Shown here one piece after another: positions 32,206 through 35,015 of a DNA stretch of 64,000 nt (the first letter of the stretch is position 1; each line of letters begins with the position of its first letter). The translations under genes and the position numbers were made by a program. The notes under the pieces were generated by a model. That model saw nothing but the letters and a program-made list of their open reading frames with translations. It had not been told where the DNA came from and ran no database searches. The stretch is from NCBI GenBank assembly GCA_022072085.1, contig JAJVII010000022.1, forward strand, positions 124,001-188,000, in the 5' to 3' direction. Source of the DNA: Phycisphaerae bacterium. Lineage in GTDB: Bacteria; Planctomycetota; Phycisphaerae; JAJVII01.

Positions 32206-34734
32206 CTATTCCTCCGGCAGCGGTCGCGGGGGAGGGGCCATTTCCATCATCTCGTAGCCCGGCCCGTCTTTCGGGAAGGTCAGCTTCGTGTGCACCGTCC
32301 CCGCGCGGCGGACCTGGTTGAACCGCATCGGGCGGATCTGGTCGCTCAGCGCCTTGACGAACGCCGGCTTGTCCACGCCCTCGGGCAGGCGGATGGCGAC
32401 CTCCGCGACCGCGCCGGTCTCGTCCAGCCGCAGGTCTACCTCGATCGTCTTGCCGTTGAGTTCGTGCTGCTGCGCGAGCCTGGCCCAGCGGGTCCGGGTG
32501 TAGAACCGGAGCGTCCCCTCGACCCGCATCGTCTCGGCCGCGGGCAGCAACTGCTCATCCGGCTGCGAGGTCGGCTGCGTCGTCGGCACGCCGTCCGGCT
32601 GAGACGTCGGCGTCTCCGGCTGTGTCGTCGGTGGAGGGGGCGGCACATGAGGCCGGACCGGCGGGGCGACCATTTCCGACCAGTGCGGCGGCGCGGGTTG
32701 AAAGCCGTCGCCGCGCGGCCGGAGCGGGGGCGCGGGCTGCTCGTCCGCCACCAGCGTGATGGGCGGTCCGGCTAGACTGGACTGCTCCGCCGGCGCCGGG
32801 GCCATCTCCGACTCGTGCGTCGGCGGCAGGGGGATCATCTGCGGCGGCTGGGGCTGGATCGGCGCCGGGGCCATCTCGGTGTCCTCGGTCGGGAACTCCC
32901 GTTGCGGCTGCGTCTGCGGTGGCGCCGGCTGCGTCGGGAGCGGGGCCATCTCGGTCGGCTCGGGGGCCATCTCCGTTTCAAACGTCGGATCGCGGAACGG
33001 ATCGGGCGCCGGCTGGGTCTGCGGCGCGGGCTTGTCTGCGCCGGGGTTGGCCGGGCCGGTCGGGGTGGGGGCCCGCTCGGTCGTCTCGGGGGCCTTGACG
33101 CCGTCCTTGCAGCCGATCGTAGTCAGCAGGATCGCCGCGGCGGCAGCGGCGGCTGGGCCGGCCAGGCGGCGGCGGCGCGGCGACTGCTGTGGCTGGGCGG
33201 CTATCCGCTCCATCCGCGCGACGATTCCCTCCATCCGCCCCAGCATGTCGGCGTCGAACGCGACGCGCTCAGCCAGCAGGGCGTCGGCCACTGCCGCATC
33301 GTCGCGGCCGTCGTCGTCGGCCTGCACGTGGGCGACGATCTCGCCCAACAGGTCGGCGTTATTCCAGTTCAGTTCCGCGACCAGGCCCTTGACCTGCGGG
33401 CCGAGCCCGGCTGCGCGGCCAGGCCAGAAGTGCCGCAGGATGTGGTAGTAGTAGTCCGCCCGCATCGCCTGGTGGTTCATGCCCGGGCCGGTGAAGTTCC
33501 GCTCGGCGAACACGCGGTAGAACATCTCGAACGCCCGCTGCATCCGCGGGTCGAAGATGCGGTAGTGGTAGCCGAAGTAGTCGCCCATCAGGCGGCCGGC
33601 GGCTCGCAGCCGCCGCTCGATCTCCGTGCCCGCGTAGACCTCGACGCGGCAGAAGTTCAGCGGGAACTCGGCGTGGCGGCGCATGAAGTCCACGTTGGCC
33701 TGGGCGTCGTCGGCCGTCATCTGGGGCTCGAAGATCAGCAGGTTGAAGCAGGTGTGGATGCTCCGCTCGGCCAGCAACTCCAGCGCCCGCTCGTTCTGCT
33801 CGCGGCGGACCCCTCGGCCGAGATGCCGCAGGCCGTCCACCGCCGCGTTCTCCACCCCCAGGAAGACGCGGAACAGCCCGAGTTCGGCCAGCCGATCGAA
33901 CGTCTCGGGGTGCACGTCGTTCGGACGCACCTTCACCTGGAACGCAAACCGCCCGACGCCGCGGGCCGCCAGCTCGTCAGCCAGTCCGTCGATGCGGGCG
34001 AGCATGTCGGACTTGCCGGGCAGGAAGAAGTTGTCGTCGTGGAAGTTGAAGATCCGCACCCCGCGGTCGTGGTAGAGGTGGGCCATCTCCGCGGCGATGC
34101 AGCCGGGGTCGCGCTGGCGGAACCGCTGGCCGGGGTTCTCGCGATACCACGCGTTGATCGAGCAGAAGTGACAGTTGGCGTAGCACCCGCGGCCGGCCAG
34201 GATGTTCGCGATCGGCTGGCCGAGGTAGTGGTGGAACGTCGCCGGCCGCGTCGGCCAGGGCCTCACGTCCAGGTCCGCCGGCGTCGGCCGAGCCGGCGTG
34301 CGGACGACCTGCCCGTCGCGGTCGCGATAGCTGACGCCCGCGACGCGCGCGGGGTCGGCCAGGTCGGCTGCCAGCTCGACCATCGCCTCTTCGCCTTCGC
34401 CGTGGATGGCGGTGTCGATGGCCGGGAAGTCGCGCAGCAGTTCCGCGGCGTGGAAGCCCGCGAAGTGCCCGCCCGCGGTGACGTGCCCGCGATAGCCGGC
34501 GGCGCGGAGGGCGTCCGCGAGCGCGACGTATTCCCGCGCCCGGGCGGTGAAGACCATGCTCAGCCCGACGACGGCCGGGTCGAACGCGAGGATGTCGCGG
34601 ACGATCTGCGGCGATTGGGCGGCTGCGTGGAAGTCGAAGATGCGAGGCGAGTGGCCTGCCGCCGTCAGCGCCGCGTCGATGCAGCGAAGCGCCAGGTTCT
34701 CCTCCAACTCCGGCCCGACCAGTGCGATCCTCAT
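32206..34734 (-). CDS. B12-binding radical SAM enzyme fused to a lipobox-like helix, Pro-rich EMAP repeats and a TonB-like C-terminus
   Basis: 842 residues in one frame. Residues 1-125 are a cobalamin-binding domain; the radical SAM core (about 172-400) has CYANCHFC with ligands C184, C188, C191. After a helical segment comes a hydrophobic stretch with ILLTTIGC (534-541), like a lipobox. Residues 548-725 are Pro/Gln/Thr-rich with recurring (T/S)EMAP units: near 587-591, 594-598, 619-623, 642-646, WSEMVAP at 685-691, and MEMAP at 830-834. Residues about 736-822 resemble a TonB C-terminal fold (VEGTLRFY; IEVDLRLDETGAVAEVAIRLPEG). A cytosolic radical enzyme with a secreted-like tail is unusual. 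B12/rSAM proteins often methylate or rearrange substrates; the substrate here is unknown. Confidence 0.7.
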   Translation of the reverse strand: MRIALVGPELEENLALRCIDAALTAAGHSPRIFDFHAAAQSPQIVRDILAFDPAVVGLSMVFTARAREYVALADALRAAGYRGHVTAGGHFAGFHAAELLRDFPAIDTAIHGEGEEAMVELAADLADPARVAGVSYRDRDGQVVRTPARPTPADLDVRPWPTRPATFHHYLGQPIANILAGRGCYANCHFCSINAWYRENPGQRFRQRDPGCIAAEMAHLYHDRGVRIFNFHDDNFFLPGKSDMLARIDGLADELAARGVGRFAFQVKVRPNDVHPETFDRLAELGLFRVFLGVENAAVDGLRHLGRGVRREQNERALELLAERSIHTCFNLLIFEPQMTADDAQANVDFMRRHAEFPLNFCRVEVYAGTEIERRLRAAGRLMGDYFGYHYRIFDPRMQRAFEMFYRVFAERNFTGPGMNHQAMRADYYYHILRHFWPGRAAGLGPQVKGLVAELNWNNADLLGEIVAHVQADDDGRDDAAVADALLAERVAFDADMLGRMEGIVARMERIAAQPQQSPRRRRLAGPAAAAAAAILLTTIGCKDGVKAPETTERAPTPTGPANPGADKPAPQTQPAPDPFRDPTFETEMAPEPTEMAPLPTQPAPPQTQPQREFPTEDTEMAPAPIQPQPPQMIPLPPTHESEMAPAPAEQSSLAGPPITLVADEQPAPPLRPRGDGFQPAPPHWSEMVAPPVRPHVPPPPPTTQPETPTSQPDGVPTTQPTSQPDEQLLPAAETMRVEGTLRFYTRTRWARLAQQHELNGKTIEVDLRLDETGAVAEVAIRLPEGVDKPAFVKALSDQIRPMRFNQVRRAGTVHTKLTFPKDGPGYEMMEMAPPPRPLPEE

Positions 34735-35015
34735 GGCGAGTCCTCCGGGTCATGCGACCAGACGCGGCGCGCATACCTATTCCACGAATATGAGATGCGC
34801 CAACCCAGACGATGTTCCCGCCCGGCGGCAGCCGCGTCAACAGCCGATTCACTTGCGTGCCAAAGGGGGTGGAGGGAATTCAGCCTGCGGGCCGATAAGG
34901 ACAGATGCGTGACGTCGGCCTCGCCAGGGGGCCGGGGATGGAAGTTGGCCTCCGGGGCGGGGCGCGGTAGGATGACAGGCCCGACTTGACGCGGCAGGGG
35001 CCGCAGGTGATCCCA

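Follow-up and report, generated by a model that had tools for sequence, protein, structure and literature searches.

A B12-dependent radical SAM enzyme family with a candidate protein substrate in its own tail or in an adjacent gene

For many B12-dependent radical SAM enzymes without a known substrate, the sequence gives no hint of what is modified. A gene of a Phycisphaerae bacterium raises this question together with another: why should such an enzyme be continued, in the same chain, by a repeat-bearing tail of envelope type? The gene lies in the window, by which we mean the whole 64,000-nucleotide stretch that was analysed (contig JAJVII010000022.1). Sequence comparison makes it likely, in our estimate, that the product is a cobalamin-dependent radical SAM enzyme carrying its own protein substrate in the tail. 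The substrate motif is apparently written into the same protein or into the next gene, so the activity should be directly testable in many bacteria.

The gene is one open frame of 842 residues on the minus strand, with its ATG at 34734 and its stop at 32206. A sequence-only reading of the window had described this frame with a cobalamin domain and a radical SAM core, and Pfam and the sequence bear this out. Its list of features was right, except that the minus strand was left unstated and that ERAP at residue 553 is an extra variant unit. The gene stands alone, with a DUF362 gene on one side and a YkuD gene on the other, both on the plus strand, and there is no second copy of it in its own genome. 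The gene and its core comprise the following features.

32206..34734, minus strand: whole coding sequence, B12/radical SAM enzyme plus fused tail (open frame; fused layout also in homologs)
34742..34746, minus strand: Shine-Dalgarno-like GGAGG, 8-12 nt 5' of the ATG (sequence)
34372..34701, minus strand: B12-binding domain, residues 12-121 (Pfam PF02310, E 1.4e-16)
33715..34194, minus strand: radical SAM core, residues 181-340 (Pfam PF04055, E 1.6e-13; Foldseek OxsB, TsrM, MgmA)
34162..34185, minus strand: CxxxCxxC iron-sulfur motif, C184/C188/C191 (sequence; alignment)

The three cysteines, correctly placed in the earlier reading, are invariant in all 33 aligned sequences, and the cobalamin-binding domain is present in 33 of 33 family members. 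AlphaFold models the core with pLDDT mostly 90 or more, and the top Foldseek matches of the model are OxsB, TsrM, MgmA, TokK and CysS (E 1e-16 to 1e-22). By its cluster motif, cobalamin domain and fold, the protein is a member of the B12-dependent radical SAM superfamily. Against the NCBIfam equivalogs BchE, HpnR, ApyD, rSAM_ocin_1, TIGR04014 and CUAEP-tail, the core falls below every curated cut-off, the highest score being that of BchE (100 bits versus a cut-off of 481). A search of a plasmid collection returned distant radical SAM proteins only.

AlphaFold resolves the tail into a helix (residues 519-540), a disordered stretch (541-723) and a folded domain (728-822), with these features.

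33109..33177, minus strand: RRRR, hydrophobic stretch and lipobox-like TTIGC, residues 520-542 (sequence, AlphaFold; putative membrane/lipoprotein role)
32566..33114, minus strand: disordered Pro-rich segment with the repeated motif, residues 541-723 (pLDDT <50)
33067..33078, minus strand: motif ERAP, residues 553-556 (sequence; variant also in homologs)
32962..32973, minus strand: motif EMAP, residues 588-591 (ETEMAPEP; sequence)
32941..32952, minus strand: motif EMAP, residues 595-598 (PTEMAPLP; sequence)
32866..32877, minus strand: motif EMAP, residues 620-623 (DTEMAPAP; sequence)
32797..32808, minus strand: motif EMAP, residues 643-646 (THESEMAPAP; sequence)
32662..32676, minus strand: motif EMVAP, residues 687-691 (HWSEMVAPP; sequence)
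32269..32553, minus strand: folded TonB/TolA/AgmX-like domain, residues 728-822 (AlphaFold, weak Foldseek and profile matches; homolog L080)
32233..32244, minus strand: C-terminal motif EMAP, residues 831-834 (sequence)

Residues 519-542 read PRRRRLAGPAAAAAAAILLTTIGC, and the hydrophobic segment, which is internal rather than N-terminal, closes, as had been noticed, in a lipobox-like TTIGC whose Cys is residue 542. The repeated EMAP units, the EMVAP variant and the terminal EMAP that had been reported are all there, at residues 588, 595, 620, 643, 687 and 831; five EMAP copies compare with 0.02 expected from shuffled tails. The C-terminal domain had been called TonB-like. It is folded, and a Foldseek search with residues 728-822 agrees with that name, weakly, with HasB/TonB/TolA C-terminal domains on top (best E 0.012). 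The TonB/AgmX profile scores 18.7 bits on the window tail against a cut-off of 40, and the tail of the homolog L080 passes the NF033768 cut-off with 53.3 bits. In the same genome there is no other tandem-EMAP protein, and 3 of 60 relatives gave matches, as chance predicts. We dropped the NF058595 ‘lipo-invert’ model as an explanation of the tail: its match to residues 516-560 is below the cut-off (14.0-19.4 bits versus 37), and the model is noisy across 199 genomes of the phylum, with many sub-threshold matches in planctomycetes and control genomes.

The tail is Pro-rich and disordered, as would be a low-complexity linker in which EMAP arises by chance, and a sequencing or assembly error could likewise have joined two genes, the sequence-only reading having named a frameshift or join near residue 520. 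We assign this explanation a negligible probability. GC3 is even (core 0.93, tail 0.91) and the frame is single, which gives no hint of a frameshift near this residue. Two close planctomycete relatives, with 59% and 56% core identity, share the whole arrangement in a single frame, from the core through the hydrophobic segment and linker to the C-terminal domain, and the same fused layout recurs in more than 25 independently assembled genomes. The linker cannot be aligned across the wider clade, yet most tails share a unit such as THMCEMAPYP, SHPTEMAPEP, THPHERAPVP or THESEMAPAP. Taking the motif from the window and counting it in 26 non-redundant tails from other genomes, with the window excluded, we found 30 copies of EMAP versus 0.18 +/- 0.43 in shuffles (maximum 3 in 2000 shuffles), an enrichment of more than 100-fold. 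The exact EMAP occurs in 17 of the 26 tails and a loosened pattern in 22. A second group of fused tails (group B) repeats PPPDPLPPP instead, with 37 DPxP versus 5.9 expected. The shuffles, the independent assemblies and the uniform GC3 in a single frame thus refute both a chance linker and an assembly join.

Across the GTDB species genomes that were scanned, we found 56 loci, distributed over Planctomycetota, Myxococcota, Verrucomicrobiota, Acidobacteriota, Thermodesulfobacteriota, Nitrospinota, Gemmatimonadota and other phyla. Many of them are metagenome-assembled and some bin labels are doubtful, which leaves the sequence comparison unaffected. For example, L065 (JABMRB010000116.1), titled Candidatus Nealsonbacteria, groups with planctomycete sequences and probably comes from a mislabelled or contaminated bin.

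Other members of the family lack the tail, and at 24 of 27 readable tail-less loci an adjacent gene bears the motif; the loci without such a gene in the stretch read are L149/L165, L200 and L201. The partner genes were mostly spotted by eye, since BLAST clustering found none of the group C substrates, in which little but the motif is conserved. As background, in 303,447 aa of non-adjacent frames one of the two longer motifs is absent and the other occurs 4 times; the short EPAH pattern turns up 10 times, never more than once in a frame. In L081, a tail-less planctomycete enzyme of the EMAP clade, an upstream gene that ends just before the enzyme's start encodes a protein with a signal-like N-terminus and the end DPGTHMKEMVAPDPRPVPPDPPPPPPNFRR, with THMKEMVAP near the end. 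In group C (nine loci: L085, L096, L098, L102, L103, L105, L108, L110 and L163), the adjacent gene encodes a small protein with an N-terminal hydrophobic segment and a VVDPLPPPxxC-like (VxDPxPPPxxC) motif, which is present once or twice. Group D, the tail-less enzymes of Geomonas, Brocadia, Nitrospinae, Methanoperedens and others, has a conserved downstream gene with EPAH repeats (six loci), and these repeats rank with the best conserved parts of the encoded protein. In Geomonas oryzae, for example, the enzyme lies at L077:6001-7809 and the downstream gene at L077:7839-8558. In a sister clade (group E), a small upstream gene with DPxP(D) is found at four loci. The EPAH proteins and the small DPxPD proteins have no evident signal or hydrophobic anchor. 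Pfam and NCBIfam (June 2026) hold no family for the motif tails or the partner proteins, save for the TonB/AgmX-like domain in some tails. The earlier reading had named separate genes without motif conservation as evidence against its proposal; split homologues do exist, and the motif is conserved in them.

We then compared the motif with the enzyme phylogeny. A core tree separates the fused EMAP enzymes (group A), the fused PPPDPLPPP enzymes (group B) and the tail-less groups C, D and E. When the motifs are classed as E-type (E-x-A-P/H) or D-type (D-P-x-P), the motif class changes once and the fusion state five times on this tree (76 scored rows), which is a quick tree without bootstrap, so that the fusion-change counts are approximate. 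By this comparison, motif type follows enzyme phylogeny and not fusion state: the motif moves between cis and trans and is inherited together with the enzyme. A rule that predicts the class from the core alone, by best BLAST match, was fixed first and then applied to 284 more genomes of the phylum of L091, excluding loci already seen. The prediction was right at 11 of 11 new loci: EMAP 3/3, DPLPPP 5/5, split C-type 2/2 and split H-type (the group of L149/L155) 1/1. DPxP arrays in cis were also seen in eight more new fused members, with 2-10 copies each (for example, MVVDPLPEDAFEQQDYMVVDPPPPDVVEQDYMVVDPPPPDV) and 56 copies versus 1.3 expected; these members resemble the training set only distantly, and since they often matched a split H-type enzyme best, their fusion was unpredicted. 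The exceptions are L189, at a contig end, and the distant L200 and L201, where neither a tail nor a motif neighbour was seen.

Because the motif is kept either in the enzyme's own tail or in the protein of an adjacent gene, it is probably what the enzyme acts on, that is, the repeated motif is probably the substrate. The enrichment and the co-inheritance indicate that enzyme and motif belong together; they would fit a motif that is itself modified as well as one that serves recognition, and they do not specify the modified residue. The sequence-only reading had proposed a self-substrate, and this idea gains support from repeats far above chance, from a motif in the adjacent gene when the tail is missing, and from a motif type that tracks phylogeny. 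It had also proposed that the tail tethers the enzyme to the membrane. In an explanation that we consider improbable, the repeats dock a third protein or oligomerise, the tail is such a tether, and the true substrate is a small molecule or lipid. The hydrophobic segment and the TonB-like domain would suit an envelope tether, and the core profile matches include BchE and the hopanoid methylase HpnR. The substrates of BchE and hopanoid methylases are small molecules or lipids. However, tail-less cases keep the motif in an adjacent protein, in some of them without an evident signal or hydrophobic anchor, and the motif type tracks the enzyme core through fusion and fission. The fused genes also lack conserved pathway neighbours, as an all-against-all BLAST of neighbour frames revealed no conserved genes around the fused loci. 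Since the EPAH and DPxPD partners have no evident anchor, anchoring alone does not explain the pattern; tethering may be an added role, but it is not the common feature.

It is more unlikely still that the motif is a recognition sequence only, with the modified residue elsewhere, such as the Cys after VDPLPPPxxC or near the lipobox. Most split C-type partners do have a Cys after the motif, and in many EMAP units one comes before it (HMCEMAP), but many units, including all those of the window, have no neighbouring Cys, and an array of copies is more readily understood as a set of several modification sites.

With the motif as substrate, residues 1 to ~515, the cytosolic core, would recognise and modify it in the disordered tail of the same protein, in cis or between subunits, and the sequence acted on would be (T/S)-(H/Q)-x-x-E-(M/A/R)-(V)A-P-x-P. 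Two adjacent genes would encode the enzyme and its substrate in other lineages. It counts against this mechanism that AlphaFold leaves the repeats disordered, that L149/L165, L200 and L201 have no adjacent motif gene in the stretch read, and that 4 of 29 EMAP-clade tails lack the lipobox Cys. By the positive-inside rule, the RRRR-hydrophobic segment would leave the enzyme on the cytosolic side and send the tail out. Since radical SAM chemistry depends on the reducing cytosol, the tail would have to be modified before it is exported. With its TonB/TolA-like domain, it would then face outward from the inner membrane, perhaps as a lipoprotein released from the enzyme by cleavage. The lipobox Cys of about 25 of 29 EMAP-clade members suggests lipoprotein-type processing, and the TonB/TolA/HasB-like terminal domain implies that the final role of the tail is probably in the envelope.

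As for the chemistry, MgmA, the methyl-coenzyme M reductase glutamine methylase, is a B12-dependent radical SAM C-methyltransferase that acts on a protein side chain (PMC11796369), and ApyD, also a distant relative of the window protein, C-methylates a ribosomal peptide to make beta-methyltyrosine (PMC10635010). MgmA (9ccb) is the closest solved sequence to the window protein (E 3.5e-10) and one of its top fold matches (TM 0.73 on the target). Because these two enzymes C-methylate a protein or a peptide, C-methylation of an unactivated carbon in a motif residue would be the most likely modification, and by this analogy with its nearest structural relatives the enzyme is probably a protein C-methyltransferase. 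Nevertheless, MgmA acts on a separate protein, McrA, whereas the window's substrate candidate is in the same chain, and the window scores 46 bits with the McrA glutamine methylase family TIGR04014 (cut-off 360). The RiPP maturation radical SAM C-methyltransferases, including ApyD (NF050148, TIGR03975), are also B12-radical SAM enzymes; the window is far under their cut-offs, and their precursor, unlike the tail of the window fusion, is a free-standing peptide from a cluster with several enzymes.

The closest precedent for a fused or split enzyme and substrate is the borosins, in which a modifying enzyme and its peptide substrate are fused (OphMA types I-III) or split (type IV SonM/SonA) (PMC8429565). 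The family described here likewise has a candidate substrate motif, in cis in the fused members and in trans where enzyme and motif protein are encoded separately. However, borosin enzymes are unrelated SAM-dependent alpha-N-methyltransferases, a domain that the B12/radical SAM enzyme of the window lacks. We know of no borosin with a lipobox segment, such a motif array or a TonB-like domain. The CUAEP/CCAEP-tail radical SAM (seleno)protein (NF040546; window 56 bits versus 500) is B12/radical SAM-like and named for a C-terminal peptide motif; by its name this is a short tail, whereas the window tail is repeated and predicted to be exported. NF058595, whose cut-off the window does not reach, also by name places an anchoring segment near the C-terminal part, as in the window. 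Our literature search found no description of this system, a weak absence since subscription journals were poorly covered. On balance, we favour a previously undescribed class of self-modifying B12 radical SAM enzymes in several phyla, with an exported, lipoprotein-like motif tail as substrate that was repeatedly split off. The new feature seems to be an exported substrate tail in cis on a B12/radical SAM system that appears to modify protein. If so, the short list of enzymes fused to the peptide that they modify would extend to radical chemistry, and envelope modification of this kind would occur in Planctomycetota, Myxococcota, Verrucomicrobiota and others.

Several minor observations concern the partner proteins. 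Those beside L085, L096, L098, L102, L110, L163 and L188 share an R-x-R-(T/V)-(L/V)-x-H-L-like stretch just before the hydrophobic segment, a candidate recognition leader in C-type partners. Downstream of the L081 enzyme (L081:4100-5000), the upstream partner apparently has a second paralog (YGVPARP...), which lacks the THxxEMVAP end. L166-L169 (clade E, Planctomycetota) have small upstream proteins with DPPPDD- or DPAPDDW-like motifs, repeated in some, and three of these tail-less enzymes end in an FDxSWT-like motif, an undescribed two-gene system.

Further tail types were also seen. In a more distant clade, L150, L156, L159, L160 and L162 have a lipobox-like segment and a tail with no DPxP and no EMAP that ends in FPCLAxFE(I/V)CPEFVIIE or similar, perhaps a further substrate motif at the extreme C-terminus. 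G438, a deltaproteobacterial bin and the genome of L083, holds no fewer than 14 members of the extended family, among which several tail types occur together; three of its members (L153, L157 and L158) have fused tails of more than 400 aa with a motif like ICDPMAIPPD or ICDMAAPPPD, close to that of the split partner beside L105, IVCDPMPDAISC. Finally, the window's own genome encodes a 916-residue frame (L002; G000:C51:5934-9500, minus strand; first residues masked) in which we recognised by eye a fatty-acid-desaturase-like N-terminal part and a B12/radical SAM-like C-terminal part.
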